The notes under the pieces: model-generated | The model's input: the letters and a program-made list of their open reading frames with translations, nothing else | Told to the model about the DNA's origin: nothing | Databases searched by the model: none | Shown here: piece by piece, positions 1 through 27,195 of the stretch | How positions within the stretch are numbered: position 1 is the first letter of the stretch | Layout: the number at the start of each line of letters is the position of its first letter | NCBI GenBank assembly: GCA_028820935.1 | Contig: JAPPHZ010000049.1 | Span: forward strand, 1 to 47,787 | Direction of reading: 5' to 3' | Length of the DNA stretch: 47,787 nucleotides | Source of the DNA: a bacterium | GTDB taxonomy: Bacteria; Actinomycetota; Acidimicrobiia; Spongiisociales; Spongiisociaceae | Made by a program: the position numbers and the translations under genes

Positions 1-2
1 AC

Positions 3-280
3 ATGGCCCACACAGCCCGAGCCGAGGGATGGGACCCCCTCGAGCTGTTGGTCAAGGTCCTCGCCGAAGAAGTCACCGCACGGGAAACACACGGCGGCCA
101 AAACCGCATCCGCGCGGCCCGATTCCCCCAGACAAAGACCCTCGACGACTTCGACTTCGCCCACCAACGGTCAGTGTCACGAGCCCAGATCGCGCATCTA
201 CACCAACTCGACTTCGTCCGCGAAGCCCACAACGTGATCTTCCTGGGCCCACCAGGCACCGGCAAAACACACCTCTCCAT
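3..280 (+). mobile_element. istB: IS21-family istB fragment (truncated at both ends)
   Basis: Encodes the early part of IstB, the AAA+ helper ATPase of IS21-family transposition. The reading frame opens about 30 residues inside a normal IstB. It shows the family's conserved run RIRAARFPQTKTLDDFDF, then DFAHQRS, and the Walker A stretch GPPGTGKTHLS. At about base 280 the similarity stops abruptly, right after Walker A. The next bases belong to the minus-strand relaxase gene. No IS terminus is visible at this junction, so this is not a clean insertion end. It may be a deletion, a recombination scar or an assembly join inside a repeated IS. A possible IS21-type end at the other edge of the window (47733 onward) has the same orientation, which would fit one IS copy broken by contig ends. 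Confidence 0.8.
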
Positions 281-3200
281 GAGTACGGGGTCTTTGTCGG
301 TGTAGGTGTCGGCGATGGCCCGGTGGCCGCGGATGCGTTGGTGGATGTCACCGCCGCCGAGGTGTTGTTGGATGTGGGGCCAGGGTTGTGGGAGTCCGTT
401 GCGCCAGTGCTGGAGGAGGGCGGCGGCGCTGAGACTGGCGGGGTCTTCGCCTGGGGGGAAGGTGACGACGGTGGTGGGGACATCGGCGTGGTGGGCTTGG
501 TCCAAGACTTTGCGCTGGGCATCCTGCCCGGATCCATCTCCGTCGAACGCTGCGATGAGGTGGTGGGCGCCGACGGCGAGGATACGGTGGAGGTGGGAGT
601 CGGTGAAGGCGGTCCCGCCGGTTGCGACCACGTTAGTGAGGCCAGCGCGGTGGGCGGCTATGGCGTCAGTGTAGCCCTCAACTATGGCGGCTGTTCCGCT
701 GTTGCGTATTTGGTGGGCGGATTCGGCTATGCCGTAGAGGGTTTCGGTTTTGCGGTAGAGGGAAGTGGTGCGGGTGTTGAGGTATTTAGGGGCCTTGGGG
801 TCGGTGTTGGTGGGGAGTTTGCGCCCGGCGAACCCGATCACGTCTCCGCCCAGGTTCCGGATGGGGAACACGACTCGGCCGCGGAGGACGTCGTAGGTTC
901 GCCCGGTTTTGCGGCTGATAGTAGCGACGCCGGAGGCGACGGCTGTGTCGTCGTCTTGGAGGGTGTTAGTTAGTCCTCTCCATTGGTCGGGCGCCCACCC
1001 GAGCTTCCACTTTTTCCGGTCGTCGGGTCCGATCCCCCGCTCGGTCAGGTATCGGCGGGCGTCTTCGGCGTGGGGTGAGTGGAGGAGTTGTTGGTGGTAC
1101 CAGTCGGCGCTACGGCGGAGCAGGGCTAGTTCGGGTTCGTGGCCGCGGGTATCGGCCCGCCCCGGTGGGGTAGGAGCGGGCAGGGGGATGGGTGGCAGGT
1201 TGGGCGGTTGCCGTGTGACGGCGGCTTGTTGTTGTTGGGTGGCTTGGGTCCAGGGAACCGGGACGGGTGCTGTGGGTGGTTGGGCTGCGCCGGCGATCAC
1301 CTGTGCGGTTTGGTGGTTGGCGTGGTGCCAGACGGCGGTGAGGCGGGCGGCTGTTGCGCCGTCTTCGATCCAGTCTGCTATAGCCTCGTACCAGTGCGCC
1401 CGGTCTGTAGCGGCGAGGTCCGCTCCGGCGGGGTTTGGGGGTAGTTGGGTGTGGAGGCGACTACGGGCGGCGTCCAGGGCTTCGAGGGTGGTTGCCCACC
1501 GCCGGGCACGTTGTGCTCTGAGGGTGGCCCGCACCGCCGATGCCCATTGTGTTTCGTCTTCGCTCAGTTGGTGGTGGCTGTGGGGGGTGAGGAGGTCACG
1601 GAGGGTGGGGTCGGCGACTGCGGCCATGAGAGCGACGGTGTGGTCGGCGGCTGGGCGGGCACCGACCCGGCGTGCGAGTTGGTAGCGGGCGACCAGGTCC
1701 AGGAGAGGACCTGGGTCGTCGAGAGGATGGGGGGCGGGCTGGTTGGCCCAGCTATCAGCCAGCGTCAGGAACGGCTCGAAGTGGTCAGCACCCCACGCAT
1801 CGGCGGCGGCTTGGACGGCGGGGTCGGGCGCGGGTTCCGCCACTGCTGGTGGTTTGTCCGCTTCGGCGACAGGATCCGGATCGGGGGTGGTGTCGTCGCC
1901 GCTGGGGGGTAGGTCGTCGGGATACAACCAGTCGTCGTGGTCGGCTACGGGTGGCCCGAATAGTGCCTCTAGGTCTTCGCCGTCCTCAAGGGCGGCCACG
2001 AGGATGTCCTCCCACTCCCGGGCGGCCTCGTCAGCGGCGGCCTGTTGGTCGAGCCACGCTTCGATATCGGAACTGACCCGAGCCTCGATACCTTCCCGAC
2101 TGGCTGTTGCTGCGGTCGCCTGCCCGAGCGAGGCTCCGCCGAGAACGGCGAGATCCGCAAGGGTGGGCATCGGTGTGGTGTGGGGGCTGTCTGCAATCTG
2201 TCCGAGATGCGCGGCGGCTACGTCAGCTGACACGAGTTGTGATCCTGCGGGCACGGTTAGGGGATGTGCGGAGCCGCGTTTGAGTACGGTTTCGATTATG
2301 TGATCGGGTGGTAGGTGGTCGGGTGGGGTGTCGGGGTCGTACTGTGCTTGGTCGGTGACGACCATTAGGTGGTTCTCGTGGCGGCCGCGGGTGAGCCCCA
2401 CATACAGCTGGGCGCGGCGGCTGTGGACGGTGATGGCGCACAGCGCGGCGTCGGTGGTGAGGGACTGGACACGGGTCTGTGTGGTGGCGTAGCCCAGGTC
2501 GAGGTGGTCGACTGCGTAGGAGGCGGGGAGGACGACCGTGACATCTTCGTGGGCGAGGCGACGGGCGGTCACAGGCCCCTCTTTGTCTGCTCCGGTGATA
2601 ACCCAGCGGTCGCCGTTGCGTACCCACTGCCCATCGGACGCGACGATGCGGCGGTTGTTGCGGCGGGTGGCCACCGTGTCTCCCACCCGGATAACACCGT
2701 TGCCGGCGCCCTGCACTCTGTGCCCGGTTTCGCCCGCCCGGTGGCGGCGGGCGGCGATCTCAGTGTTGATCTCCCCAACCAGGCTGAGAGTGGGGGCAGT
2801 GATGATCGTATCCAGCCCACGGCGTTCCTCCCACCACGCAGCGGCGAAGCCGGCCACTTCCGCTTCGGTGCTGTCATGGACGCGACCCCGCTTGTGGTGG
2901 TAGTCGAGCGCCGTCTTCTGGCCTTGGCGTAGCCCGATCGTGGCGCGGGCCTCGTCATGGTCCGAAAAGCGCCACAGCTCCGACAGCACCGCGGCGGGCA
3001 CCAGGTCAGGCCGATCAGACAGGGCGTGGAACACACCACCGGCGCCGACTGCTCCTTGCTGGGCGGTGTCACCGACGAGGATCATCCGCGCCCCGACCTG
3101 GGCGGCCCGCCCAGCCAATGCGGCGAGGGTGCGGGTGTCCAACTGTCCGGCTTCGTCCACGATCACCCACCCGCCTTGCGGTACCCGGTCGTCGGCTATC

Positions 3201-4867
3201 GCCGCTAGCGCGGCCGTCTCCGCCGCCACATCGAGGGCTTCGCCCAAGTTGGCGGCTGCGGTGGCGGTGGGTGCCACAGCGAGGACCTGGTCGCGGCCGA
3301 CCGCCCCAGCTACCCGGCCCAACATTGCGGTCTTGCCCGACCCGGCAGGGCCCAACACCAGCACCCCGTTGGTGTCCGCCTCGAGGATGGCTGCGACCGC
3401 GGCGGTCTGATCTGATCCAAGCCCATCGGTGTCCGCTTCGGCGCTGTCGGCGTCGGCTTCGCCAGCGAGCCATGACACGGCGGCTACTTCGGCTGCGGCC
3501 AAGCCGGGGGAGTACCAGCGCCCGTCCCGTTCCACCAGCTGGGCGGTGACCCGCTCCCAAAGGCCGGCGGCCAACTGCCCGAGAGTGGTCTGGGGGTCGA
3601 TGTCGCGGCCGTGGAGATCTGCGCTGGCGGACAGGGTGGCCCACACAGTCCGGAGAATGTCGGAACGAGTCAGCCCCCGAGACGCTGTACCCAACTGCTC
3701 CAACTGTGCCACGACCGCGGCGTCCACGGTGTCGGGAAGGCTGGGGGTGGGGTCGGCGACCAATACCTCGACGCGGTCGTATGGGCCGGGCTCCTGCCGG
3801 GGAGTAGAGCGTAGGCCTGCAGCGAGTGTTTCGGGGGTGACCCCGGCGGCTTCGGCTTCGTCCCGCCAGCGGGCATGGGGGTCGCCGTAGGTCTGTTTGG
3901 GGGTGCGAGTGTGACGCTTCGCCCGATCCCAGAGGTCGAGCCGCTCAGCCGGGGTGGGCTCCCGTTTGTGCTCAGCCTCGAAGGCGCGGACCTTGGCTTG
4001 GGCGACCTTGGCGATATCACGGTGGCGGGCGGACCACTCCGCCATCAGACCGTCCGGGCGTCCCGCCAGCTCGGCGTGCCAGTTGTCACCCACACGATCC
4101 CAAACCCAGCCCAACCGCTGCGACAACTCAGCCCGCAACACCGCCGCCCCCACCATCGCCGCCGCAGCCGCGTTCCGATACAACAAACGGCCGTCAAGGG
4201 TCCGCCACTTACCATCCTCACAGCGGACCCGGTTATGGACAATCAAATGCGCATGGACATGAGGATCACCGGCCCGGCTCGTCCAATGGTCGAAACGGGC
4301 GATGGTCGCCCCCTCAGGTACCTCCACCCGGACCACCCCGTTACGACCAGCACGGCTCGCAACAGCCTCCGACTGGAGGAACCCCACCACCGCCCCGGTA
4401 CTGACATCCCAAGCCGCTTCGATCTCCTTACGATCCGCGGCATCCGCCAGCGCCCACGCCGCGCTCACCGACTTCGGAGGCGAATACACCATGTCGAAAG
4501 CCGAGAACTTGCGCCGCCGGCGCACCACCCCCGCCCGATCAACGAAGGACCCGCCCGGCCGGTAACGGCGGCCCAACTGCTCCCCGCTCGAAGGGTCCAC
4601 CGCCGACAGCGACGCCGCCAACTGCTCGGGCGTTACCACCCCACCCTCAGTGACTCCCATCGCCCCGGCTGCGGCCCACCGCCCCGCCAGCTCGCCATGG
4701 TTGCCCGTGTAATACCCGACAGCCGGCGCGACACCCGATCCCGGGCCCGGGCTACTACCGGCCGCCGCCTGCCCTCCGCCGCCAACCGACCCGGCAGCTC
4801 CCGGCTGTTTCCGCCCGGTGTAGTAGGCGACGTGTTCGACCCCGACCTTGGCTATGTAAAGCGACAT
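281..4867 (-). CDS. MobF relaxase fused to RecD-like helicase and DnaG-type TOPRIM primase core (C-terminus truncated)
   Basis: Conjugative relaxase that should nick at oriT, unwind and lead the strand into the recipient. I translated the frame from ATG 4867 and found no stop to the window edge; plasmid-derived sequence runs to about residue 1529. Seen: a Tyr pair at Y15-Y16, the TrwC signature FDMVYSPPKSVS, and the three-His metal site PHVHAH (H203, H205, H207). The helicase follows, with Walker A GPAGSGKTAM (from residue 506), Walker B VIVDEAGQ (568) and a C-terminal YVGLTRGRHENH motif (822). After an acidic/proline linker comes a DnaG-like module: YLTERGI and KLGWAPDQW near residue 1275, EGYTDAI with E1397, and FDGD with D1442 and D1444. 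It has no zinc finger. Helicase fusion is standard for MobF; a TOPRIM primase core behind it is, to my knowledge, unusual. The start has a -10-like CATTAT seven bases upstream, suggesting a leaderless transcript. Confidence 0.9.
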
Positions 4868-4870
4868 GGC

Positions 4871-4910
4871 CGACATAATGCCCCACGACCCCCGAAACCC
4901 GGTCGCGCAT
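4871..4910 (-). promoter_or_regulatory. Relaxase promoter with site B element
   Basis: On the minus strand the element ATGCGCGACCGGGTTTCGG lies at 4892-4910, ending 24 bases before the relaxase ATG. A -10-like CATTAT follows at 4880-4875, with seven bases between it and the ATG. The same element, at the same distance from the ATG, precedes the transfer operon at 17022. Two site A palindromes (4919-4932, 4944-4957) sit immediately upstream. No consensus -35 is visible, so the site B core may stand in for it as an activator site. Confidence 0.55.
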
Positions 4911-4918
4911 CACGTACC

Positions 4919-5461: not shown

Positions 5462-5517
5462 GATACGCGACCGCATGCGCGACCGGAAGCGCGACCGGTC
5501 GCGCATAAGCGCGACCG
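5462..5517. repeat. Site B iteron group 1
   Basis: Four copies of the core (G/A)CGCGACCG start at 5465, 5477, 5489 and 5509, so spacing is 12, 12 and 20 bp. The perfect palindrome CGCGACCGGTCGCG spans 5490-5503. The lead-in AGGTCAGAGGGAT is shared with the second group at 5675. Spacing differs from the three promoter arrays (22-22-20-22), so this group could serve another role such as replication initiation. Confidence 0.75.
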
Positions 5518-5552
5518 CGACCACCACTCCCCCTCCCCGGTGACGTAGCGCC

Positions 5553-5566
5553 GGGACACATGTCCC
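5553..5566. promoter_or_regulatory. Site A palindrome
   Basis: GGGACACATGTCCC, a perfect 14-bp palindrome with a centre variant. It lies between the two site B groups upstream of the primase-like gene. Confidence 0.7.
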
Positions 5567-5674
5567 ACTCTCCACAGCCGCCGGCCGCTCCTCGCTGGTT
5601 GGCCCGCAAGCCCCCTCGGCCTCTGTCGGAAGCGTCCGTCCTGTCTAACTGCTTGCGGGGGCCTAGGTCAGAGG

Positions 5675-5772
5675 GATGCGCGACCGCTCGGGGGGAGATG
5701 CGCGACCGCTCGGGGGGAGATGCGCGACCGGTCGCGGTTGAGCGCGACCCCAACGGGGTGGATCCGCGACCG
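5675..5772. repeat. Site B iteron array upstream of the primase-like gene
   Basis: Five iterons of the type GATGCGCGACCG. Cores start at 5678, 5700, 5722, 5742 and 5764, giving spacings of 22, 22, 20 and 22 bp. The third unit contains the palindrome CGCGACCGGTCGCG (5723-5736) followed by GTTGA before the fourth core. The last unit runs into GGGTTTCGG and then GGGTGGCAGTGT, the same order seen before the transfer operon. Unlike the relaxase and transfer operon, the start codon here lies about 66 bases further on, behind a ribosome binding site. Confidence 0.85.
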
Positions 5773-5838
5773 GGTTTCGGTAGGCGGGTGGCAGTGTGGG
5801 TACCGGAGCAAGGGACAACTGGGGCAGGAAGGATCAGC

Positions 5839-7098
5839 ATGGGTTCGAGAGCGGCGGCGCTGGTGCGGGAAGCGACCGATATCGTGTCGCTTTTCGAGGA
5901 GGTGACCGAGGTCACCCGCTCAGGCGCCGCCGCTGCGATGGCGCTCTGCCCCTTTCACTCCGACAAAGACACGCCTTCGCTGAGTATCAGCGCCGACAAG
6001 GGTGTGTACAACTGTTTCGGCTGTGGCGCTCGGGGCGACGCTCTGACCTTCGTCCAACAAGCGCACGGTGTGGGCTTCGCCGAGGCGCTGTCGATGCTGG
6101 CGGCGCGGGCGGGCATCGACCTGGGACCCCAGACGGCCCGCCAGTCTCGGGCGGCGCGGTTGGGCAACATCCGGTGGCAGGCAGCCGAGTTCTATCATGT
6201 GCTGCTCCGCGTGGACCCCACGGCGGCGCCGGCGCGGGGCTACCTCCGCCGTACCCACGGTTTCGGCTCGTCCGACGTGGTCGGCTTCACCGTAGGCTGG
6301 GCTCCGGCGGACCCGTCGGCGGTTACCAGCGCACTCCGGGATGCCGGCGTGTCCGGACGCGACATCGCCGCATCAGGGGTGGCCAACCTCGGCATGGGAC
6401 GGGCAGGCCGGGTGGTGTACCCGGTGGTGACCGGGCCGGATCGGGTGGCCGGTTTCGTCTCCGAAGACTCATCCGGGCGAACGTTCCCTCCGTCCCGTGG
6501 GTCCCGGTTGCTGTTCGGCATGGGCCAGGCACGGTCAGCGATAGCACGGGAGGGCACAACTGTCGTGGTCCCGGACGCGGCCGCGGTGATCGCCTGGCAC
6601 AGGGTCGGGGTAACGAACACCGTAGCGCCGGCCACGCCCCGCCTGAACACCGACCACCTCGCGACGCTGGCCCGGTTCGGCTTGAGGGCGGTGATCGTCC
6701 CACGGGACCCCGACAGCACCCGCGGACTGTTGGCCGACACGCCCACCGTTCGTGGTATCGACGTCTACATCGCAGAAGCTCTCAGCGTGGCCGGCCGCAA
6801 CCTCAGCCAGGCCGACGCTCTAGCCGCCGCAAGATCCGCAGTACCGATCTCCGAAGCCCGGCTAACCACCGCACTGTCCGGCTACCGAACGGCCGCCACG
6901 CCAACAACCCGGCGGGCCCTGCTCGCCAACGCCCGGCAACTCATCGAAGACGAGACGGACGAGCACACACGGTGGGAACTGGCGGCAGTCGCTTCCGGCA
7001 TTACCGGTTTGCCGCTCGAGCGCGTGATGGGGGCGGCGACGCTGCTCCCCCCAAAGGAGGCACAGCGCCCGCTCGCCCGGGCGGCACTGGCGCTGTGA
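5839..7098 (+). CDS. CHC2 zinc-finger primase-like protein with a TOPRIM lacking the catalytic Glu
   Basis: A 419-residue DnaG-like protein. The start at 5839 follows GGAAGG and places ATDIVSLFEEV, typical of a DnaG N-terminus, at residue 12. The zinc finger is complete: C37-x2-H40 and C59-x2-C62, in CPFHSDKDTPSLS and YNCFGCGARGDALTFV. A TOPRIM-N-like segment follows (YLRRTHGF, GFTVGWAPAD), then a degenerate TOPRIM. There the usual EGYxD is replaced by PDAAAV, so the catalytic Glu is gone, while a D-x-D survives as RDPD. Alone it may not prime. The minus-strand relaxase next door has the opposite set of parts, an intact TOPRIM without zinc finger, so the two may work together. It could instead be a replication accessory or DNA-binding regulator. 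Confidence 0.85.
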   Translation: MGSRAAALVREATDIVSLFEEVTEVTRSGAAAAMALCPFHSDKDTPSLSISADKGVYNCFGCGARGDALTFVQQAHGVGFAEALSMLAARAGIDLGPQTARQSRAARLGNIRWQAAEFYHVLLRVDPTAAPARGYLRRTHGFGSSDVVGFTVGWAPADPSAVTSALRDAGVSGRDIAASGVANLGMGRAGRVVYPVVTGPDRVAGFVSEDSSGRTFPPSRGSRLLFGMGQARSAIAREGTTVVVPDAAAVIAWHRVGVTNTVAPATPRLNTDHLATLARFGLRAVIVPRDPDSTRGLLADTPTVRGIDVYIAEALSVAGRNLSQADALAAARSAVPISEARLTTALSGYRTAATPTTRRALLANARQLIEDETDEHTRWELAAVASGITGLPLERVMGAATLLPPKEAQRPLARAALAL

Positions 7099-10978: not shown

Positions 10979-11961
10979 GCAGCCTCTCCTCAGCGATCAA
11001 GCAGGCGTACCCGGCCGTCACCAAGAGGGGATCGGTTGTTGAGGAAGCGGCGGTGCTGGACGTGGCGTTCGATCATCTCCTCTACGGACTTCACGAGCGG
11101 GGCGTGTATGAAGTGGTCGGCCTGACGCTGAAGGGCGGCACGGCGCTGCGGAAGTACCACCTCGGGCATCGGAGCCGGTTCTCCTTCGATCTTGACTTCG
11201 ACGCTGAGGAAGGCGCTGACGAGTTGGTCGCTGAGGAGATCGACGGGATGGCATTCCGTCACTTCGAGTTCGCAGCGCACGAACGCCGGGGGCACTACAG
11301 CACCCGTGTGGCCACCGACCTACTTCCCGGCGGTGGGTATCTCCAGGCGAAGATAGACTTCTCCACCCGGGGCCTTTGGCTCCCGCCCGAACAACGCAGC
11401 CTCATCCACACGCCCGTCCAGGCCGCCTACCCGTTCGATCCCGGGTTCCCAGTCCCGGTGATGCGCGTGGACGAGAACGTGGCGGAGAAGCTCGGACGCT
11501 GGGAGGGGGAGCCTCTCATCCGTGACCTCTACGACCTGGCCGCTCTCAGCACCAGAATCGCCGACCCGCAGCTCGTCACCCGGATGTGGGTGCTGAAAAG
11601 CTACGCCGGGATGGTGAGCGGCAGCCGCCGCGGGCGCGGCGGGCCTGCTGCCTCGATCGACACGTTGACCGCCGACAAGCGCTCCGCCGGGTTCGTGCTC
11701 GATGACTTGGCGCTGCCCGCAGACCCTCCTGACACAGCCAAGCAGACCCTCGTCGAGAGCTACCTGCCCAAGGTGGACCAGCTGTGCCGCACCGTGGCTG
11801 ACCACATGACCCCCGACCTGTACCGCTACGCCGACGACAGGGGCGCTCTCAGCTGGGAGGTAGGCCAAGAGATCGCCGAGATCGAGCGGCAGGCGCTGGC
11901 CGCCCTCACCCGCGACGACCCGCACAGGAACCCGTCAGATTTGGGGCCGGGCTGGCTCTGA
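10963..11961 (+). CDS. abiEii: AbiEii/AbiGii-type nucleotidyltransferase toxin
   Basis: A 332-residue nucleotidyltransferase-fold toxin. The family motif reads LKGGTALRKYHLGHRSRFSF followed by DLDFDAEEG. The GG-T, the R-S/F context and the D-x-D supply the nucleotide and metal site. A later segment, ENVAEKLGRWEGEPLIRDLY and DLAAL, matches the conserved C-terminal block of the family. I chose GTG 10963, which overlaps the antitoxin stop, because the frame upstream of it lies under the antitoxin gene. Members transfer nucleotides to tRNA or other substrates and arrest growth. Confidence 0.8.
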   Translation: MGVRLSSLSSAIKQAYPAVTKRGSVVEEAAVLDVAFDHLLYGLHERGVYEVVGLTLKGGTALRKYHLGHRSRFSFDLDFDAEEGADELVAEEIDGMAFRHFEFAAHERRGHYSTRVATDLLPGGGYLQAKIDFSTRGLWLPPEQRSLIHTPVQAAYPFDPGFPVPVMRVDENVAEKLGRWEGEPLIRDLYDLAALSTRIADPQLVTRMWVLKSYAGMVSGSRRGRGGPAASIDTLTADKRSAGFVLDDLALPADPPDTAKQTLVESYLPKVDQLCRTVADHMTPDLYRYADDRGALSWEVGQEIAEIERQALAALTRDDPHRNPSDLGPGWL

Positions 11962-12867: not shown

Positions 12868-13140
12868 GTGTGTGACGTTTGTTGCCGCGAGTTGGACAGG
12901 GCGTACCCGATCCCGGTCGAGGACGGCTGGGCGCTGTGTAGAGGCTGCGCCACTGGGTGGGGGGTTCCCGTCCGCCTAGCTGGTCCCTTTAGCGACCGCG
13001 GGACTTGTCCGTGCGTGCCGTGTTCAGTGGTGGCGGCCGGGATGTATGACACCCACTGGCAGGGTCTGGTACTGAACGCAGGCCGACTGGCCGAGCCGCC
13101 CGCTTCCGCGGGACATGCGTTCGCCGCCCTCCAAACCTAG
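12868..13140 (+). CDS. Small zinc-ribbon-like protein
   Basis: A 90-residue frame with GTG start and a GGCGGAGGG upstream. C2-x2-C5 and C24-x2-C27 form a probable zinc knuckle, with a further CPCVPC around residue 48. The stop lies directly against the site B array of the nrdJ promoter. It may be a DNA-binding or accessory protein; no family assigned. Confidence 0.5.
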   Translation: MCDVCCRELDRAYPIPVEDGWALCRGCATGWGVPVRLAGPFSDRGTCPCVPCSVVAAGMYDTHWQGLVLNAGRLAEPPASAGHAFAALQT

Positions 13141-13143
13141 GTG

Positions 13144-13219
13144 GATGCGCGACCGCGGGAGGGTGGATGCGCGACCGGTCGCGGTTGAGCGCGACCGCGG
13201 AGGGGTGGTTGCGCGACTG
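13144..13219. repeat. Site B iteron array upstream of nrdJ
   Basis: Four iterons with cores at 13147, 13169, 13189 and 13211, spacing 22, 20 and 22 bp. The palindrome CGCGACCGGTCGCG lies at 13170-13183, again followed by GTTGA. The last copy is degenerate (GCGCGACTG). This is the three-promoter array minus its first unit. Confidence 0.85.
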
Positions 13220-13223
13220 CTCC

Positions 13224-13243
13224 GAGACCCCCTGTGTGGTCTC
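13224..13243. promoter_or_regulatory. Inverted repeat in the nrdJ leader
   Basis: GAGACC (13224-13229) and GGTCTC (13238-13243) form a 6-bp stem with an 8-base loop, about 30 bases before the nrdJ start. A TATAGC -10-like sequence follows at 13252. It could be an operator or a leader hairpin. I do not see a cobalamin riboswitch or an NrdR box. Confidence 0.35.
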
Positions 13244-13272
13244 ATTCGTGGTATAGCGACGAAAGGTAACGG

Positions 13273-15933
13273 ATGCGGGCGTCGGTTGTGGTGTTGAACG
13301 GTGGAAAGAAGGCTGACCCGGGGGGTGCTTTGGCACGCCGGGTACGTAATGCGGAGCCGGTGGAGTGGTCCCGCCGGGACTTGCGTATCGTGGGCGGCGA
13401 CGGGACGGTGGTGTGGGAGCAGGCAGGTGTCGAGTTTCCCACCGCCTGGTCGCAACAGGCCTGCCAGATCGCGGCGTCCAAGTATTTCTGGGGGAAGGTC
13501 GGCACCGCTGAGCGTGAGACTTCGTGGAGGCAGGTGCTGGAACGTGTGGTGGGGACGATCACCGGTTGGGCGCATGACGCCGGCTATTTCAAGGGGGAGC
13601 AGGCCGACCGCTTCGCCATCGACCTGTGGGAGGTATTAGCCCGGCAGGAGGCGGCGTTCAATTCGCCTGTGTATTTCAACCTCGGCTGTGAAGACCGGGC
13701 ACAACAGGTGTCAGCCTGCTTCATCCTCCCAGTGGGGGACTCCCTGCCGGAGATCCTGGACTGGATCAAGACCGAGGGGCTGATCTTCCGAGGCGGGTCG
13801 GGCGCCGGCGTCAACCTGAGCGCCATCCGGGGCAGCATGGAACAGCTATCCGGCGGCGGGGTAGCGTCCGGGCCTGTGTCCTTTATGGCGGGGGCTGATT
13901 CGAGCGCAGGCGCGATCCGCTCGGGCGGTAAGACACGGCGCGCGGCGAAGATGGTGCTTCTGGACGTAGACCATCCCGACATCGAGGAGTTTATCGCCTG
14001 CAAAGTAACCGAGGAACGCCGCAGCCGCGACCTGGCGGCCGCTGGGTGGGACATGTCCTTGAACGCCGACCGTGGGCTGCGGTACCAGAACGCCAACAAC
14101 TCGGTGCGTGTCAGCGACGCCTTTATGGAGGCGGTGATGGCCGACAGCGAGTTCGAGTTGGTGGCTCGCACGACCGGTGAAGTGACCAAGACGGTACGAG
14201 CTCGGGATGTGTGGCGGCAGGTCGCCGAGGCGGCGTGGGAGTGCGCCGACCCTGGTGTGCAGTACTCCACGACGATCAACCGTTGGCATACCTGTCCTGC
14301 CTCGGGGCCGATCAACGGCTCGAACCCGTGTTCCGAGTATGTCCACCTCGACAACACAGCGTGCAATCTGAGTTCTATCAACCTGCTCCGGTTCGTCGGT
14401 GACGACGGCGCGTTCGACTTGGACGGCTTCGAGTATACGGTTCGGACGATGATCACCGCTATGGACGCTGTGGTGATCCCCGCGGACTACCCGACTAAGG
14501 AGATCGGTGACCGCACCCGCCGGTACCGGCAGCTCGGGCTCGGCTACGCGAACCTCGGCGCGGCGCTGATGGCGTTGGGCCTGCCTTACGACTCGTCCGC
14601 TGGCCGTGCTTGGGCGGCGGCGGTGACCGCGTTGATGTCGGCAGTGGCGTACGACCAGTCGGTGGAACTGGCTGCCGAGCTGGGTCCGTTCGATGGGTAC
14701 GGCGACAATGCCGAGCCGATGCGGGCGGTGCTGGAGATGCATCGGGAAGCCAGTTACAAGATCGGCCCGCTCGCTCCCGCTCAGATCGTTGCGGCGGCTC
14801 AGGCGATGTGGGACCGGGTGGTGGACCGCTCCCGGCTGTACGGGGTGCGTAACAGCCAGATAAGCGTTTTGGCGCCGACGGGGACCATTTCGTTCATGAT
14901 GGATTGTGACACCACCGGGATCGAACCGGACCTGTCCCTCCTCAAGTGGAAGCAGCTGGTCGGCGGCGGGACTCTGCAGATGGTGAATGGGACGGTGGGA
15001 CGTGCGCTCAAGACCTTGGGCTACGGCGAGGCTACGGCCTCGGCCATCGTGAAGCATATCGAGGGTACCGGCTCGGCGGTGGACGCACCGGGTCTGCTGG
15101 GTGAACACCTCGACGTCTTCGCTACCGCGATGGGCGACAACCGTATCTCGCCGCAGGGTCATTTGCGGATGATGGCAGCGGTTCAGCCGTTCCTCTCGGG
15201 GGCGATTTCCAAGACGGTCAACCTCGATGCTGAAGTGACCGTAGAGGACGTGGAGGAACTGTTCCATCTGGGCTGGGAACTCGGGCTGAAGGCGGTGGCA
15301 ATCTACCGGGACGGTTCCAAGTCGGACCAGCCGATGACCATTACCGACACCAGTTCAGGGACGACGGACAGCCCCCCGCAGTTGCCGGAACGCCGGGAAC
15401 TGCCCCGCAGCCGCCAGTCGTGGACGACCGCATGGCGGGTAGCCGATTACTCCGGGTACTTGACCGTCGGCCTATATGACGACGGTCAGCCTGGCGAGGT
15501 TTTCGTTAACGGCGGCAAGCAGGGTTCGACCATGGCCGGCCTGCTGGACTCCTGGGCGATCTCCGTGAGCCACGGACTCCAGCGAGGTGTCCCCCTCGAG
15601 AGCTACGTCCGGGCCTACAAGGGGATGAGCTTCCAGCCAGCTGGGGTCACCGACGACCCTGACGTGAGGGTGGCCACGTCGCTACCCGATTTCCTGATGC
15701 GGATCATGGCCCTGCGGTTCCTGGACGAAGACACGCGTCAGGGACTGGGCGTGCTGTCCACCGCCGAGAGAGGCGCCCGGCCGATCCCCGGTCTGGAGAC
15801 AGCCGGCGTAGTCTCCACCGTGACGGAACACGCATCGACTGCGCCGCTATGCCAGGACTGCGGTATCCAGATGGTCCGGGCTGGCTCATGCTACGCCTGC
15901 GGCCAGTGCGGAACGACGAGCGGCTGCAGCTGA
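13273..15933 (+). CDS. nrdJ: Class II (adenosylcobalamin-dependent) ribonucleoside-diphosphate reductase
   Basis: Reduces ribonucleotides to deoxyribonucleotides with a B12-derived radical, with or without oxygen. The 886-residue protein carries the core of the family: SACFILP with C149, GGSGAGVNLSAIRG, the catalytic NPCSEY (N351, C353, E355), the redox partner C364 in NTACNLSSINL, and the APTGTISFM loop. The C-terminus ends with the reducing Cys pairs CQDCG and CGQCG. The start follows GAAAGG. It is controlled by a site B array, unlike a chromosomal housekeeping copy. A plasmid copy may supply dNTPs in the recipient during strand transfer and replication. The C-terminal region after residue 690 includes a TSCPD-like segment (VNGGKQGSTMAGLLDSWAIS). 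Confidence 0.95.
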   Translation: MRASVVVLNGGKKADPGGALARRVRNAEPVEWSRRDLRIVGGDGTVVWEQAGVEFPTAWSQQACQIAASKYFWGKVGTAERETSWRQVLERVVGTITGWAHDAGYFKGEQADRFAIDLWEVLARQEAAFNSPVYFNLGCEDRAQQVSACFILPVGDSLPEILDWIKTEGLIFRGGSGAGVNLSAIRGSMEQLSGGGVASGPVSFMAGADSSAGAIRSGGKTRRAAKMVLLDVDHPDIEEFIACKVTEERRSRDLAAAGWDMSLNADRGLRYQNANNSVRVSDAFMEAVMADSEFELVARTTGEVTKTVRARDVWRQVAEAAWECADPGVQYSTTINRWHTCPASGPINGSNPCSEYVHLDNTACNLSSINLLRFVGDDGAFDLDGFEYTVRTMITAMDAVVIPADYPTKEIGDRTRRYRQLGLGYANLGAALMALGLPYDSSAGRAWAAAVTALMSAVAYDQSVELAAELGPFDGYGDNAEPMRAVLEMHREASYKIGPLAPAQIVAAAQAMWDRVVDRSRLYGVRNSQISVLAPTGTISFMMDCDTTGIEPDLSLLKWKQLVGGGTLQMVNGTVGRALKTLGYGEATASAIVKHIEGTGSAVDAPGLLGEHLDVFATAMGDNRISPQGHLRMMAAVQPFLSGAISKTVNLDAEVTVEDVEELFHLGWELGLKAVAIYRDGSKSDQPMTITDTSSGTTDSPPQLPERRELPRSRQSWTTAWRVADYSGYLTVGLYDDGQPGEVFVNGGKQGSTMAGLLDSWAISVSHGLQRGVPLESYVRAYKGMSFQPAGVTDDPDVRVATSLPDFLMRIMALRFLDEDTRQGLGVLSTAERGARPIPGLETAGVVSTVTEHASTAPLCQDCGIQMVRAGSCYACGQCGTTSGCS

Positions 15934-15952: not shown

Positions 15953-16693
15953 ATGGCGATCACCCCGTCACCGTTCATGCTTCTGGAGGCCTCCCCGGGT
16001 GACGGCCCGCTCCACTTCATAGCCTCCACCGATGCCGGCCATGTGCAGATCAGCAGACGAGGTGACCGCTGGGGCACCGCCAACACGGGAGAGGGCGAGC
16101 CGAGAGTGCTGCCCGGGCTGTATCGGACGCCGGCTGCTGCCGCGGCGGTTCTCAGCCGTCATTACGACCTGGTGCCCTACCGTAACGCTGACGAGCTCCA
16201 CCGGTGGCGGGAACGGGAGGCCCGCCGGGCCGCAGCCCGGCGACGATGGGACCGCGGGCAGCCACCTTGGGTCTCCTACCACGTTCCGCTCGCTCCCCGT
16301 GGTTACACACTGTCCACCGACTGGTCTGACAGCAGCTACCGCTTCTGCGCGACCACCGAGGCGGGTCGGGCGCGCCTAGTGGGGGTAAGCACGCACTGGT
16401 CGGCCAGCGTCGTGGACGCCGCGGACCCGTCCAACAGTCGCCGCTACGGAGCGGAGTTCGTGACCGCCGAGGAAGCAGCCGCAGCGATCATCGGTGCCGG
16501 CCATCAGGTGGCACTGTGGGACCGAGCCGCCGAACAGCGTCGGGAACACCCGGACACGATCCCCCTCATCGACGAATACGGCGACACCCTGTGGGTGGTG
16601 GATCGTGTGTGGTACTACGGGCTGGGCGACCTGGCCACCCCCGAGCGCCTCCCCACGGCCCGCCAGATGGGCACAGCCGGCCAGGTGCTCTGA
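15953..16693 (+). CDS. Protein of unknown function downstream of nrdJ
   Basis: A 246-residue soluble protein with no membrane segment. It seems to hold two similar halves, each with a short strand-rich unit ending in an alanine-rich helix followed by GHQVALW or RHYDLVPY: LYRTPAAAAAVLSRHYDLV in the first, FVTAEEAAAAIIGAGHQVAL in the second. This resembles small DNA-mimic or accessory plasmid proteins only in general character. It probably shares the nrdJ transcript (19-bp gap). Confidence 0.6.
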   Translation: MAITPSPFMLLEASPGDGPLHFIASTDAGHVQISRRGDRWGTANTGEGEPRVLPGLYRTPAAAAAVLSRHYDLVPYRNADELHRWREREARRAAARRRWDRGQPPWVSYHVPLAPRGYTLSTDWSDSSYRFCATTEAGRARLVGVSTHWSASVVDAADPSNSRRYGAEFVTAEEAAAAIIGAGHQVALWDRAAEQRREHPDTIPLIDEYGDTLWVVDRVWYYGLGDLATPERLPTARQMGTAGQVL

Positions 16694-16891
16694 CGACACC
16701 GGCAAACCAACCACCCGACCGAACGAACGGTCGCTTTCACCTCCTGCGGCTCCCCTCGATCTCGAGCACAGCTCGGGGTGGGCTCCCGGCCTGAACATCG
16801 CTACCGGACCGCCCCTGAGCGAGCCGACACCGCGTGTGCTAATGGTGACATGTTTCTGGCTGAAACAAACCCTGCGGTGGCCCAGCCGTTG

Positions 16892-16989
16892 GATGCGCGA
16901 CCGCTGAAGGGTGGATGCGCGACCGCGGAGGGGCGGATGCGCGACCGGTCGCGGTTGAGCGCGACCGCGGAGGGGTGGATGCGCGACCG
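16892..16989. repeat. Site B iteron array upstream of the transfer operon
   Basis: Five iterons with cores at 16895, 16917, 16939, 16959 and 16981, spacing 22, 22, 20 and 22 bp, the same as at 5675-5772. The palindrome CGCGACCGGTCGCG lies at 16940-16953. The last core runs into GGGTTTCGGGGG. The 328-bp gap between 16694 and 17021 holds no gene besides this array. Confidence 0.85.
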
Positions 16990-17021: not shown

Positions 17022-17783
17022 ATGTCGTACGCGACTATCAGCCCTAGTACCGCTTCCCCGGCCGCTGCCCTGTGCGACGAAATGTTCGAGGCACTTGTGG
17101 CGGCCGTGGAGGTAGCGGCGACCGAGCCCGAGGCAGCGGCGGCTCCCCCGACTATCGGAGGTGACGCTGCTCCGGTCCGGGAGTGGACACCGCCGGCGGA
17201 CGCTCCGTGGAGAGGCGGGACGCTGGACACGGTGGCACAACTGGCGGACATGTGCGGCGGTGTGGTCTCGGACGAACTGCTCGCCCCTGAGGACCGTACC
17301 CGCGTGTTCGCGCGCCGCCTGGCCAGGGCTGGCCAGCTGGCAGGTAGTTCGTACACCGACGGACGGTTGGTGGCCGCTGCCCTCGATCAAGACGGGGATC
17401 CCGGGCTACCAGCCGCACAAACCAAAAAGGAGGAGCCAACCATGGTCGATGTGATAGTGAACCTCATGTACAAGTACCAGGTGCTGGTGATGGTCGGCTT
17501 CGGCTTCGCCACCGCTGGATTGATGCTGTGGGCGTTTGTCAAGACCCGCTCAGCTCCCGCAGTATTGGGCATGGCAGCCGTAGGCATCGGAGCGATGGTA
17601 CTGGTAGCGAACATGACTACGGTCGCCAACCGCTTCGGCGAGGACGTGCTCGGCAACGAGACGATCACCATCGAGCAGGTAACCGGCAGAAGCGCCCCCG
17701 GCCAGTCATCGACCGCGCCCGGAGGCGGCGGCACCCCCACCACCGTCCCCTGCGACGACGAGTTCAGCCCCGGATCCTGCTAG
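17022..17783 (+). CDS. VirB2-like small membrane protein with long N-terminal extension
   Basis: A 253-residue frame. The C-terminal 113 residues start at an internal in-frame ATG (17442) preceded by a strong AAAAAGGAGGAGCC. They have two hydrophobic helices (VLVMVGFGFATAGLMLWAF and PAVLGMAAVGIGAMVLVA) and a polar tail, the layout of VirB2/TrbC-type channel pilins. The first 140 residues are soluble and Ala/Pro-rich. Two products may be made from one frame, or the upstream part may be an independent protein whose stop has been lost. It lies directly before virB4, the usual place of a VirB2 or VirB3 homologue. Confidence 0.7.
   Translation: MSYATISPSTASPAAALCDEMFEALVAAVEVAATEPEAAAAPPTIGGDAAPVREWTPPADAPWRGGTLDTVAQLADMCGGVVSDELLAPEDRTRVFARRLARAGQLAGSSYTDGRLVAAALDQDGDPGLPAAQTKKEEPTMVDVIVNLMYKYQVLVMVGFGFATAGLMLWAFVKTRSAPAVLGMAAVGIGAMVLVANMTTVANRFGEDVLGNETITIEQVTGRSAPGQSSTAPGGGGTPTTVPCDDEFSPGSC
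17442..17783 (+). CDS. Nested VirB2-like protein from an internal start
   Basis: Short form of the preceding gene in the same frame, 113 residues. Its Shine-Dalgarno is the strongest in the operon, while the long form appears leaderless. Two transmembrane helices and a Thr/Gly-rich C-terminal tail ending in CDDEFSPGSC suggest the mature channel subunit. Confidence 0.5.
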   Translation: MVDVIVNLMYKYQVLVMVGFGFATAGLMLWAFVKTRSAPAVLGMAAVGIGAMVLVANMTTVANRFGEDVLGNETITIEQVTGRSAPGQSSTAPGGGGTPTTVPCDDEFSPGSC

Positions 17784-17807: not shown

Positions 17808-20588
17808 ATGGCGAAGAAGGGCAGCCGGACATGCCAATCGTTCACGTCAGCCCGCCGCCGCCCGACCGAGCTGGGCAGGATCCCAGGGCTTACGCTCCCG
17901 TGGACGTTCACGCTCCCGCAGGTGGCCGTGTTCATGGCGGCTCTCATGGTCGGCCTGTTCCTGGTCCGGCTGGGGATGACAGCGTGGGTGCTGGTACCTC
18001 TGTTGGGCGGCGCAGCTGCCGTTGGTCGGGCCTTGCGACGCGTCAGCGTGGACGGCCGCGGGTTCGCTGCGGGGGCTGGCGGCAAGGTGCGTTTCTGGAT
18101 GCACCGCCAGTCCCACAAGGAGTTGACGAACCGTTCCGCCGACTTGGTGGCCGGCAATGTCGCGGTCGGCGACGACCATTCGGTGTGGCTGCTGTTCTCG
18201 GTGGAGCCCGCCAACTACGGGCTGCTGGCTGACACTGCCGAGGGGCTGCAGTCCCTCGGCGCGGTGGAGCAGCTGGTCCTGGCCGTGGGCGGGGAGCGGT
18301 GGCGCCTGCTTTCGACTGTGGAGCAGTTGAGCGCCGGCACGGTCGCCGACCGGATGCGCCGCGCTTCGCAGGCGACGTCGTGGGAGGCCGAGATCGCCGC
18401 TGAGACAGCGCGTATCCGCTCCGCCGAGTTGACGGAGCGGCGCTTCTGGTTGTGGGTGCAGGCCGGGCACGTACCTATGGGTTCCAACCTGGTGGGCTGG
18501 TGGCACCGCGCGCTTCGTACCTTCGGGTACACGCGGGCTGCCCGAGCCGACGCTATCGGCTGGGAGCGTCTGGCGGCCCGGACCGAACAGGTCGTGTCCC
18601 GCGCGGCGGGGTCGGTGCCGCTCCGAGCGGCGACCCTGGACGAGGTGACGGCGTTGTTGGACCGGGTACCTTTCGGGGCTACGACTCCCCGGGAGCCGGC
18701 GGAGCCTGACGATTATCCCCACTTGATGCTTCCCCAGTCGCGACCCGACGCTTTGACAGTCGGTCGGGGCATGGTGGAAGGGGCGTCTGCGTGGCACCGC
18801 GGCGCTGCCGAGTGGTGCGAACCGACCAGTGGTGTGGTGCTGGCCGCTACCCGTCGCGGAACGGTGGCCCACACAACTGCTGCGCTGTCGGAGATCCCGT
18901 TCACGTGGACGGTACCTGGCGGCGGCGAAGTGTTGTGGGCGTTGGACGCCCTCGAGGACCCCTGGGATTGGCTTGTGGACGTGACCGTCACTCCCCACGC
19001 GGTAGCGGCCGCCCGGGCCCGTAACCTGGACCGCCAACTCGCCGGCCAGTGGTCACAGCATGACGGAGACCCTGCCGGGGCCCCACCGGAGCTGCGTCTA
19101 GCTGTCGAGCAGGTGGCAGGTCAGCGGGAGGCGCTGGCGGCACGCACCGACAGCGACGAATACAACATCTGTGTCCTGTTCTCCACGGCGGTGCGGGTGG
19201 TAGGCGACGACGTAGCCGCGGCCGTGGAAACGCTCCGCTCCCGCACGCACCGCCTCGAAGCCCGGGCGGCGGCGGTGGGCATGTCCGTGGCTGTCCCATC
19301 CGGAGACCAGATCGCCGCCCGGGGAGTGTGGCTTCCCCGCGTGTCCTCGGCCCGCTACCTGCATGACTACATGCAGGTGGTGCTTTCCGACGGGCTGGCC
19401 GGGTTAGGTCCGCTGCTCCAATCACGCCTCGGCGACCCGCAGGGCGCGCTGCTGGGCGTGCATGACGAACGCGGCTGGCTGGAACCGATCCTTTTCGACC
19501 CAACGCTGGGTCCCCGTGCCAGATCTGTGGGAGCTGAACCGCAGTCCCCCTCGATCGGCGTGGTCGGCAGCCTGGGGTCCGGCAAGTCCGTGTTCTTGAA
19601 GCGGTGCTTGTGGACGACTCTCGCTGCTGGGGGTCAGTGCGTGGTCGTTGACCGCAGCGAACGCGACGTGGGCGAGTATGTGTCGTTCGCCGAGGTTGTT
19701 GGCCAGGTCACCGACCTGAAGGTGGAGGTGATCGACGTCACTGAGGGGTCGGTCTCCTTGGACCCCCTCCGGACGCTTTCTGATCGGAGGGCCGCAGCCG
19801 AGGTCGCGGTCCGGTTGCTGTCCCACGTTCTGGACCTTGACGCCCGCTCCACGGTGGCTACCCAGCTGGGCCGGGCCGCGGCTCGATGCCACGGCCAGTC
19901 GCTGCTGGAGTTGATGGACAAAGCCGCCGACGGAGACGAGACCACTCCCCCAGCGGTGTGGTCTGAGCACCGCAACCTCATCGCACACCTCGCTGAGAAC
20001 ACAGTCGCTGGGGCATTGTTCGACCCGCGTCGGCGGCCGGCGGACTTGGCCGCCGACTTGGTGGTGCTCCACGCCCCCGGCCTGGCCTTGGCTGACATAA
20101 CGGACACCGCCGCCGACATCGCGGCGGCTGCGGTTGTGTTGGGGACGCTGCTGGTAGGCCACGCCGCGACGTTTGCGCATCCCCGCTTCGCCGCCCTGCT
20201 TCTGGACGAGGCATGGTCGCTGGTTCGGGACCCGAAGGCGCAGGCCTCGGTCGTAGAGGCCTTACGAGACGGGCGTAAGCACAACACGGGCGTGTGGATC
20301 GGCACGCAGTCGGCAAACGACTTCGCCTCCACCGAACTGCGCGAGCTGTTGGGGCAGGTTGCTGTGTTCCGTTCCCGTAACCTGGAGGCGGCGACCGCCG
20401 CCGCCGCACTCGCCGGTGCCGACCCCGACATAGCCGCTCCCCTGCTGACCGACCTGCCTACGGGCACGATGCTCTGGCGGGACATATACGGCCGCCTGGG
20501 CGTAGTCGACGTGCTTCTGCCAGCAGACCCCCGCGCCGCGGCGGCTATCGACACTACACCGGCGCCGGCGCTGGTGACCCAGAGATGA
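17808..20588 (+). CDS. virB4: VirB4-like conjugation ATPase with PrgI-type N-terminus
   Basis: The energising ATPase of the mating channel, 926 residues. Residues 30-75 hold two membrane helices in a PrgI-like (VirB3-like) domain fused to the ATPase, as in many Gram-positive systems. Walker A is GSLGSGKS at 587-594 and Walker B is ALLLDEAW with D800 and E801. RDGRKHNTGVWIGTQS and the late GTMLWRDIYGRLGVV match the family C-terminus. It starts behind GGGGAGG. Its stop overlaps the next start (ATGA). Confidence 0.92.
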   Translation: MAKKGSRTCQSFTSARRRPTELGRIPGLTLPWTFTLPQVAVFMAALMVGLFLVRLGMTAWVLVPLLGGAAAVGRALRRVSVDGRGFAAGAGGKVRFWMHRQSHKELTNRSADLVAGNVAVGDDHSVWLLFSVEPANYGLLADTAEGLQSLGAVEQLVLAVGGERWRLLSTVEQLSAGTVADRMRRASQATSWEAEIAAETARIRSAELTERRFWLWVQAGHVPMGSNLVGWWHRALRTFGYTRAARADAIGWERLAARTEQVVSRAAGSVPLRAATLDEVTALLDRVPFGATTPREPAEPDDYPHLMLPQSRPDALTVGRGMVEGASAWHRGAAEWCEPTSGVVLAATRRGTVAHTTAALSEIPFTWTVPGGGEVLWALDALEDPWDWLVDVTVTPHAVAAARARNLDRQLAGQWSQHDGDPAGAPPELRLAVEQVAGQREALAARTDSDEYNICVLFSTAVRVVGDDVAAAVETLRSRTHRLEARAAAVGMSVAVPSGDQIAARGVWLPRVSSARYLHDYMQVVLSDGLAGLGPLLQSRLGDPQGALLGVHDERGWLEPILFDPTLGPRARSVGAEPQSPSIGVVGSLGSGKSVFLKRCLWTTLAAGGQCVVVDRSERDVGEYVSFAEVVGQVTDLKVEVIDVTEGSVSLDPLRTLSDRRAAAEVAVRLLSHVLDLDARSTVATQLGRAAARCHGQSLLELMDKAADGDETTPPAVWSEHRNLIAHLAENTVAGALFDPRRRPADLAADLVVLHAPGLALADITDTAADIAAAAVVLGTLLVGHAATFAHPRFAALLLDEAWSLVRDPKAQASVVEALRDGRKHNTGVWIGTQSANDFASTELRELLGQVAVFRSRNLEAATAAAALAGADPDIAAPLLTDLPTGTMLWRDIYGRLGVVDVLLPADPRAAAAIDTTPAPALVTQR

Positions 20589-24851: not shown

Positions 24852-27195
24852 GGGGTCCGACAAGAGGACCATGAAGCCGTCGGCATCTCTTGGGGAGAAC
24901 ATTCCCAACTTTTGGGTGACGGTGGCTGCTGCGGGTATACCGACCGTGTGGCTGGTCTTGGGCGCGGCCCTGGCGACCGGGACCTGGGTGGTGGGTGGCC
25001 GCCCGGGCGGTTGGCCGTCGGTGCCTGCCCTGTGGGATGTCGGGTGGAGGATGGCCTCCGACGGTGCCCGCCTCGACGAGGCGTGGCTGCTGGTGTCTCA
25101 ATCTGACGCGGTAGCTGCTGCCGCGTGGCTGTGGCTACTCGCCTTCGCTTATGCGGCAATGCTCACGTTCGGAGCGTCGGTGCTGTACCGGTGGCGGGAA
25201 GCGGGCTGGCCGACTGCTGCCCTTGCCGGCCTTCTCCGGTTCGGGGGAGACTTGCCTAAGCAGTTCCGCCACAAATCGTGGCCGCTGCCGCCGCCGTACT
25301 CTCCTCAGGTGCCGGGCCCGGGGGTGCTGTTGGGCCAGGACCGGCGCAGCCATGTGGTGTCGGCGGTTGGGCGGCCGGTGTTGGTACTCGGCCCCACCGG
25401 CAGCGGCAAGACCCGCCATGTCATCGCGCCAAACGCGGGTCACTGGCCGGGGCCGGTGGTGGCCACGTCCGTCAAGACCGACCTGGCGGAGTGGACGCTG
25501 GAACACCGGGCAGAGAAGGGCACCTGCTACGGCTATGACCCGACCGGGCGGATGTGGGACTGGATGCGCAGACACGGGATCGTCCCGGTGGTGTGGGACC
25601 CGTTGAGGATGCTGGCCGAAGTGCCCGCTTGTGAACGGCGGGAAGCCGCGACTCTGTTAGCCCAGTTCCTGACTTCGCAGTCGTCTTCGCACGACGCCGG
25701 AGCGCAAGGGATCTGGGCCACCCTCGCGCAGCAATACCTGAGCGAGGTGTTGGTGGTCGCCGCGGAGATGGGCGACACAGGACCCCCCGGCGGCGACCAG
25801 CGAGACGGCGGCGTAGGACTGTCCATCGCGCTGAGCTGGATGATGGACATAAAGGGAATGTCGAAAGACCCGATGCTGAAGGCCGCCAACCTGGGACCGG
25901 AGGGTCAGCGTTCGATGCGGCGGCTGAACACCCTCGCCGGCAAGGACGACCGCTTCCAAGGCTCGGTCGAGATAACCGCCAAAGAGGTCACCGGTGCTCT
26001 CGAGTTCACCGCTGCGGAAGGTGAGGGCCCGAACCCGGCACCGCTGGTACCCGCCGACCTGACCACCTCGGGCGCCGCTCACACCTTGTATATCGCCGCC
26101 GACCATATGTCCGTCGTGACCCACAAGCCGGTGTTCGCGGCGGTGTCACGCTGGCTGTTCCACCTCACGGAGAACCACCAGCCCGACCCGGACAAACGGC
26201 CCCCGCCGCCTTTGTTCGCGTTGGATGAATTGGCCAACATGGCGCGCCTGTCTGACCTGCCTCAGGTGCTGTCGACGGTCCGCACCCGCGCGCAGGTGAT
26301 CTGTGGCATCCAGGAACGCTCCCAGCTCGAGGCGGGCTGGGGACCCGCCGGCGCCCGCACCCTGACAGGCAACTGCCCCGTGAAGATGCAACTCCCCGGA
26401 AGTTCCGACGCCAGCGCCCTGCGCGACTGGGCGATGCTGGCCGGGACTGACGATGACGACGACAGCGACGCCGACCAGGCCGCTTCTTGGCGCACCATCC
26501 CCCAAGGCCATGCCCGCGTCATCGCCGACGAACACCCGGCGTTCACTATCAAGATGGCCGATCCCGACCGCTGGCTGGCGGACACCGTACCCACGGCTCA
26601 GGATACCCCAGGATCCGGAGGCGACGACACGGCCGACCTGCCACCACCCGCCGACCGTCCGTACACGGGCGGTGGGAGCGCCCCCGACGAGCGGCCCCCG
26701 GCCACCATGTTCGACCCCCCGCCGCCCGATCCGATAGCGGACGAGGTGGCCGCGTATGTGACGGTGGGCAACGAAGCCGCCGCCGTGGCAGCCTCACACC
26801 ACGAGCCCCCCACAGACGACACCGCAGGCACCGAAACGGCCCCCACTCCCGACCCGGGAGAACTGGATATAACCGCTCCGCCGCCGGAGCCCCGTGCCGT
26901 TCCTGGCGTTTCAGCCGGAAATACCGACCATGTGGTAGCAGCAGCGCAACCGGTACCGGCTGCCGACCTGAACGGCCAGCCCACCGCCGAAGGCCTGTGG
27001 CTGCCGACGCCGGTCTGGTCACAGGAATCGGACTACTCCGCTGGACTGGCCGAAGCAGCCGAACCGGCCAAGGACAGAGTAGGCGGCGAGGACGGCGAGG
27101 CCTTGGAGGTCTACTACGGCGAAGACGGCAAGAAGTACGCGGTTCACCCGTTCGGGCACACCTACGGATTCGACGACGCACCAGGAGAGATCTGA
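24844..27195 (+). CDS. virD4: VirD4/TraG-type coupling protein
   Basis: Couples the relaxase-bound DNA to the channel. The 783-residue protein has two N-terminal membrane helices, Walker A GPTGSGKT at residues 183-190, the family's VVWDPLRML and ALDELANMARL (D461, E462) and CGIQERSQLEAGWG. The start overlaps the previous gene (ATGAGTGA). The last 170 residues are an acidic, Pro/Ala-rich tail. It ends with YYGEDGKKYAVHPFGHTYGF, a segment also found in the next small protein. Such tails usually contact the relaxase or accessory proteins. Confidence 0.93.
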   Translation: MSEGSDKRTMKPSASLGENIPNFWVTVAAAGIPTVWLVLGAALATGTWVVGGRPGGWPSVPALWDVGWRMASDGARLDEAWLLVSQSDAVAAAAWLWLLAFAYAAMLTFGASVLYRWREAGWPTAALAGLLRFGGDLPKQFRHKSWPLPPPYSPQVPGPGVLLGQDRRSHVVSAVGRPVLVLGPTGSGKTRHVIAPNAGHWPGPVVATSVKTDLAEWTLEHRAEKGTCYGYDPTGRMWDWMRRHGIVPVVWDPLRMLAEVPACERREAATLLAQFLTSQSSSHDAGAQGIWATLAQQYLSEVLVVAAEMGDTGPPGGDQRDGGVGLSIALSWMMDIKGMSKDPMLKAANLGPEGQRSMRRLNTLAGKDDRFQGSVEITAKEVTGALEFTAAEGEGPNPAPLVPADLTTSGAAHTLYIAADHMSVVTHKPVFAAVSRWLFHLTENHQPDPDKRPPPPLFALDELANMARLSDLPQVLSTVRTRAQVICGIQERSQLEAGWGPAGARTLTGNCPVKMQLPGSSDASALRDWAMLAGTDDDDDSDADQAASWRTIPQGHARVIADEHPAFTIKMADPDRWLADTVPTAQDTPGSGGDDTADLPPPADRPYTGGGSAPDERPPATMFDPPPPDPIADEVAAYVTVGNEAAAVAASHHEPPTDDTAGTETAPTPDPGELDITAPPPEPRAVPGVSAGNTDHVVAAAQPVPAADLNGQPTAEGLWLPTPVWSQESDYSAGLAEAAEPAKDRVGGEDGEALEVYYGEDGKKYAVHPFGHTYGFDDAPGEI

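Follow-up and report, generated by a model that had tools for sequence, protein, structure and literature searches.

Element-specific repeat arrays place a class II ribonucleotide reductase gene in the putative transfer regulon of a family of conjugative elements

In three diverged elements of one kind, the same promoters carry different repeat arrays, each exclusive to its own element type in a comparison of ten contigs, and a gene for a B12-dependent ribonucleotide reductase (nrdJ) is among the genes marked in all three. By this comparison, the regulon membership of nrdJ is well supported, and it is likely that nrdJ is a transfer-regulon member of a conjugative element that supplies dNTPs for conjugative DNA synthesis; the regulator, activation as opposed to repression, the timing and the effect on dNTPs are what we infer. 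The window, i.e. the whole stretch of DNA that was analysed, is the entire 47,787-bp contig C49 of genome G000 (3.30 Mb, 51 contigs).

Results

The element and its reductase

The window unites the gene set of a conjugative element on one contig, namely a MOBF relaxase, a VirD4-type coupling protein, and VirB4-like and VirB11-like ATPases (Table 1), and from these genes C49 is predicted to be such an element. The relaxase fusion matches the Pfam families TrwC (8.3e-61), AAA_30 (6.2e-38), DNAG_N (8.6e-31) and Toprim_2 (2.3e-15), and it scores above the cut-off of the NCBIfam model MobF. The contig ends without overlap and is not visibly circular, and phage-type integrases are encoded by both diverged relatives described below (contig C88 of genome G010, and contig C47), so that the element may be an ICE rather than a plasmid. 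Its cargo includes an ArdC-type anti-restriction protein (27459-28847), an AbiEii toxin-like gene (10828-11961) and a giant SNF2/helicase protein (29586-35426); MmeI-type and DndB-like genes are found in the G010 element.

Table 1. Transfer genes, nrdJ and repeat arrays of the window
Feature	Coordinates	Strand	Remarks
Relaxase-helicase-primase fusion (MOBF/TrwC relaxase, RecD-like helicase, DnaG core, Toprim)	2..4876	-	open at left contig end
Single putative operator unit GATGCGCGACCG before relaxase gene	4900..4911	-	
Putative operator array, relaxase-primase intergenic region	5462..5517	+	
Putative operator array before primase gene	5675..5772	+	
Separate DnaG-like primase, CHC2 zinc ribbon	5839..7098	+	Pfam Zn_ribbon_DnaG 1.6e-23
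Putative operator array before nrdJ	13140..13219	+	three exact CGCGACCG units and one degenerate unit
nrdJ, class II B12-dependent ribonucleotide reductase	13273..15933	+	886 aa, ATG start, intact
Orphan protein after nrdJ	15953..16693	+	246 aa; same place in G001:C13 and G010:C88
Putative operator array before T4SS operon	16888..16989	+	
First frame of T4SS operon: conserved leader segment and small membrane segment (VirB2-like by position)	17022..17783	+	
VirB4-like T4SS ATPase	17808..20588	+	Pfam AAA_10 1.7e-30; NCBIfam TcpF/TraC/VirB4 models below cut-off
VirD4/TraD-type coupling protein	24916..27195	+	Pfam T4SS-DNA_transf 3.7e-15, TraG-D_C 4.4e-13 (longer frame 24805-27195)
TadA/VirB11-type ATPase	37698..39308	+	Pfam T2SSE 4.1e-18; NCBIfam TIGR03819 1.9e-37, below cut-off

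The nrdJ frame of the window is intact and codes for a class II NrdJ in which the catalytic Cys, Asn and Glu are all present, and B12-dependent activity is predicted. The RNR barrel (6.4e-138), the class II N domain (Ribonuc_red_2_N, 3.8e-14) and the TSCPD domain (1.6e-12) all exceed the curated Pfam cut-offs, and the NCBIfam model PRK06556 ('vitamin B12-dependent ribonucleotide reductase') gives 1178.8 bits against a cut-off of 859. When aligned with PDB 1xje, N351, C353, E355, C149 and C364 correspond to chain residues 320, 322, 324, 134 and 333, which we take to be the radical cysteine with the neighbouring Asn and Glu and the redox cysteine pair; the tail is rich in cysteines (C860, C863, C873, C876, C879, C885). 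A preliminary description of this DNA had stated that the catalytic Cys and Glu are complete, which the alignment bears out, and had placed the gene between an array and a protein of no assignment, as is indeed the case; the position it gave as the start, 13144, marks the first repeat unit of the array that precedes the gene. The orphan protein on the other side has no Pfam match at 0.01. Compared with its counterpart in G001, the nrdJ of C49 shows a dN of 0.0055 and a dS of 0.045. Chromosomal-type NrdJ frames of 1572-1999 aa occur in G001:C152, G007:C83, G034:C1, G043:C105 and G050:C40, and since their matches are interrupted near query residue 354 or in the range 539-577, the sequences suggest inteins in these five frames; the window NrdJ has no intein-like insert.

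Repeat arrays in the window

With up to three mismatches allowed, the 16-mer GGTGGATGCGCGACCG is found at 14 sites of the window where 2.2 would be expected, a number reached by 0 of 100 shuffles. Arrays of at least two CGCGACCG units occur four times against 0.06 expected (300 Markov sequences, largest count 2), and none of the four lies inside a called gene. The distance between array and start codon is 4-76 bp and therefore compatible with an operator role, and in several cases -10-box-like sequences were recognised by eye between the two. A box CCCAGGTCAG, or a close variant of it, is found ahead of many arrays in each of the three operator types discussed below (window 5449 and 5662, and also the control regions of G010:C88 and C47) and may be a conserved second site. 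Between relaxase and primase (window 4924-5565), palindromes like GGGACATACGTCCC were seen by eye to be repeated several times; these sequences could possibly be a second operator or an origin repeat. Parts of this intergenic region (window 4880-5840) recur at 65-91% identity beside the same arrays on contigs C5, C7, C8, C22, C34 and C37 of genome G000 and at L088-L103. Transfer genes are lacking from most of the small contigs that share the intergenic region and the arrays, an alpA-like gene is frequently present on them, and it is possible, going by these sequences, that they are satellite elements that share origin region and operator.

Different arrays at the same promoters of diverged elements

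The element G010:C88 belongs to another genus of the same family and is collinear with much of the window, the identities being 73% for NrdJ and 71% for the element ATPase, and C47, a 55.6-kb contig of genome G000 itself, is another element of the C49 kind, diverged from it. G010:C88 has no CGCGACCG arrays; there, GAGTACGCG arrays stand before relaxase, primase, nrdJ, the T4SS operon and one unknown gene, and GAGTACGCG units lie upstream of an alpA-like gene at the left end. C47 has neither CGCGACCG nor GAGTACGCG, and CGTTCG-n-CGTTCG pairs precede its relaxase, nrdJ and T4SS genes, with a further array before an alpA-like gene. When ten contigs were tested, each of the three units formed arrays exclusively in its own element type. 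The array sites common to the three elements are thus relaxase, nrdJ and T4SS, together with the primase in the two elements that have one, the C49 relaxase being preceded by one unit. The array of the C47 nrdJ lies about 165 codons of open frame ahead of the point at which NrdJ becomes recognisable; this stretch may be a leader, or it may extend the protein at its N terminus.

Array-bearing heads amount to 3 of 13 in C49, 5 of 26 in G010:C88 and 3 of 18 in C47, the head counts being approximate because the gene caller is simple. The expected promoters are covered completely in G010:C88 (4 of 4, hypergeometric 3.3e-4) and in C47 (3 of 3, 1.2e-3), where the unit had been spotted by eye ahead of the contig-wide scan. 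An unbiased ranking of 7-mers puts array 7-mers on top in all three elements; the number of array heads alone (3, 5 and 3 in C49, G010:C88 and C47) lies within shuffles, the maxima of which are 4, 6 and 3.

Among 138 genomes of the order, the element ATPase has four full-length relatives, all of them in elements with nrdJ; at 1e-100, a 396-genome sample of the phylum gave a match only in the window's own genome, and no relatives of the ATPase were found on viral contigs. Seven distant T4SS loci from four genomes of the order have no NrdJ match within the 5-20 kb read (0 of 7). In genome G013, GAGTACGCG arrays occur on several contigs, some of them before primase-like or alpA-like genes; this genome has no element-ATPase match, and its one listed long NrdJ is on a contig that has no GAGTACGCG arrays. 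Upstream of one alpA-like gene in G010 (L218, 8278-8451) there is a repeat of yet another, fourth kind, which does not resemble the GAGTACGCG arrays present in this genome.

Control signals and candidate regulators

Genes of the nrd type are usually controlled by NrdR or by a cobalamin riboswitch. Rfam, cobalamin riboswitch included, gave no match in the window, the region of the nrdJ on contig C38 and two related stretches, and a consensus of the NrdR box, searched with up to four mismatches, has no plus-strand match in four sequences, that near the window nrdJ among them. As regulators, AlpA-like proteins and the T4SS leader protein are the only candidates. AlpA was not accepted as a clear cognate regulator because its recognition-helix region is nearly constant across the operator types; moreover, one AlpA that is 78% identical to the copy on C8 has a different array upstream. 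The model of the leader protein has a mean pLDDT of 40.9, and its order of elements is wHTH-like.

Host reductases and origin of the element enzymes

Is the window nrdJ simply a gene of the host? That the window is chromosomal and its nrdJ the host's only copy, the objection that the preliminary description had itself raised, is ruled out by two further nrdJ in the same genome, one on the 121-kb contig C38 and the other on C47. The C38 NrdJ groups with the NrdJ of a 3.0-Mb contig of the same family. No array lies within 1 kb upstream of the C38 nrdJ, and where C38 does match the C49 unit, it does so at isolated sites in other places.

The proteins of the element family come from two sources, phage enzymes in case of the window and host-order chromosomal enzymes in case of C47, as the trees indicate. 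For these, 112 proteins were extracted, the viral set being the best 80 of 102 and the chromosomal set 27 loci from those returned (58 of 59 genomes matched) and the host copy, and 91 were used after manual removal of 9 rows that were short or odd and of 12 that nearly duplicated others. In the resulting 91-row tree, the NrdJs of the window, G001 and G010 fall within a viral group (SH-aLRT 100) with L179, L189 and L175 as nearest relatives, viral contigs that carry terminase, tail, and tape-measure and tail genes, respectively, and the C47 NrdJ falls within the host-order chromosomal clade (100). A careful 32-row tree, a subset that we chose from the 91 rows, agrees on both placements. The proposed comparison of the window NrdJ with host chromosomal copies thus sets it apart from the host-order clade and among phage enzymes. 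Forcing the four element NrdJs into one clade costs 383.8 log-likelihood units (AU p 1.03e-7; LG+G4, no mixture), and a single origin is thereby rejected; the family therefore acquired the gene on two or more occasions, and in each case it came under the putative transfer operator of the element concerned. The history would be two gains or one gain with a later replacement, and under both the reductase and its array were kept. The occurrence of a class II reductase on mycobacteriophages and the horizontal transfer of reductase genes are described in passages of PMC4428469, which name no conjugation regulon.

Discussion

In the mechanism that we propose, a DNA-binding regulator, probably encoded by the element, would bind the short direct-repeat arrays upstream of the relaxase-helicase-primase fusion, of the second, separate primase, of nrdJ and of the T4SS operon, at a distance of 4-76 bp from the start codon, and common arrays would thereby place transfer, priming and dNTP synthesis under joint control. 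NrdJ would reduce ribonucleotides with adenosylcobalamin, and the dNTPs would feed replacement-strand synthesis in the donor as well as complementary-strand synthesis in the recipient. The preliminary description had tied nrdJ to priming and transfer by its array, and this holds in that matching arrays stand before primase and T4SS, with a single unit at the relaxase, and that element-specific arrays stand at the same promoters in two diverged relatives. Counting against a transfer regulon are the arrays before non-transfer genes (the unknown gene in G010:C88, and alpA-like genes on small contigs) and the fact that the C49 relaxase has one unit instead of an array.

The co-regulation could also be real and NrdJ could nevertheless serve not mating but the element's own vegetative replication, or the maintenance of its copy number. 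The separate primase belongs to the same array set, one array lies in the relaxase-primase intergenic region, which could be an origin, and the nearest relatives of the window NrdJ are from phages, which use NrdJ for genome replication. However, each of the three elements has the same arrays ahead of its relaxase and T4SS genes too, and we consider a role in replication or maintenance rather than mating unlikely.

If nrdJ were instead passenger cargo, its array would be incidental, i.e. would represent iterons, partition sites or a dispersed repeat. The C49-type unit is indeed present on six small contigs of genome G000, mostly before an alpA-like gene, and the longer array pattern occurs in five of the ten genomes of the genus, the reversed control pattern having 0 matches. 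But all arrays scored on four elements lie between genes, either immediately ahead of a start codon or within the control region of relaxase and primase or of alpA, the unit has changed together at corresponding promoters of three elements, and other cargo such as the AbiEii and MmeI-type genes is absent from the array-bearing heads, all of which makes incidental arrays quite improbable. It is very improbable that NrdJ is a backup for entering hosts that have no suitable reductase or no B12-independent route: class II reductases do work without oxygen, which the preliminary description had considered an advantage for the element, but the class I beta subunit (PF00268) is found in none of ten genomes of the genus, compared with 7 of 14 control genomes, and NrdJ has a match in all nine other members. 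Because of these two counts, which cover class I beta and NrdJ, the hosts probably already rely on a class II enzyme, and oxygen independence is therefore not newly brought by the element, which weakens the argument.

For nrdJ as a transfer-regulon member, a wider interpretation can be offered tentatively, as a possibility that we would not yet favour: the element family may treat dNTP synthesis as a transfer function, the reductase having been recruited on two or more occasions, with the phage pool as one source and the host lineage as another, and on each occasion brought under a transfer operator that belongs to the element and changes fast. NrdJ, the T4SS and the primase linked to the relaxase would then form one transfer-and-synthesis programme. 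Perhaps NrdJ even acts in the recipient while the entering single strand is converted. The supply of dNTPs is seldom considered a limit on conjugation, and repeated acquisition of a reductase wired to transfer would make such a limit testable. If the proposal is true, a phage-type auxiliary metabolic gene has been drawn into conjugation as one of its regulated components, and the operators of an element have been re-specified in concert.

Comparison with known systems

Global transfer regulons of conjugative elements are known from RK2 (KorA/KorB), IncC (AcaCD) and the Ti plasmid (TraR), and the likeness to these is that one operator type stands before several transfer operons; as far as seen, the sequences and the regulator of C49 are different. 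RSF1010 MobA/RepB' resembles the window in that a relaxase carries its own primase, but the C49 fusion is a MOBF relaxase-helicase with a DnaG-type core and Toprim. We know of no ribonucleotide reductase that is a member of a global transfer regulon. Likewise, a literature search on reductases or dNTPs with conjugation, plasmids or mobile elements found no reductase in a conjugation regulon, as judged on titles, the openings of abstracts and passages of PMC4465626. The phage class II enzymes, for example the mycobacteriophage NrdJ treated in parts of PMC4428469, are alike in that the window NrdJ groups with the NrdJ of tail- or terminase-bearing contigs; the window nrdJ, in contrast, sits in a conjugative element beneath that element's putative transfer operator. 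A link between the large subunit of a ribonucleotide reductase and a conjugative channel is also seen in the F conjutome, where, according to passages of PMC11288057, NrdE is among the proteins moved through the F T4SS; this NrdE is a class Ib host protein of E. coli, whereas the window NrdJ is encoded by the element.
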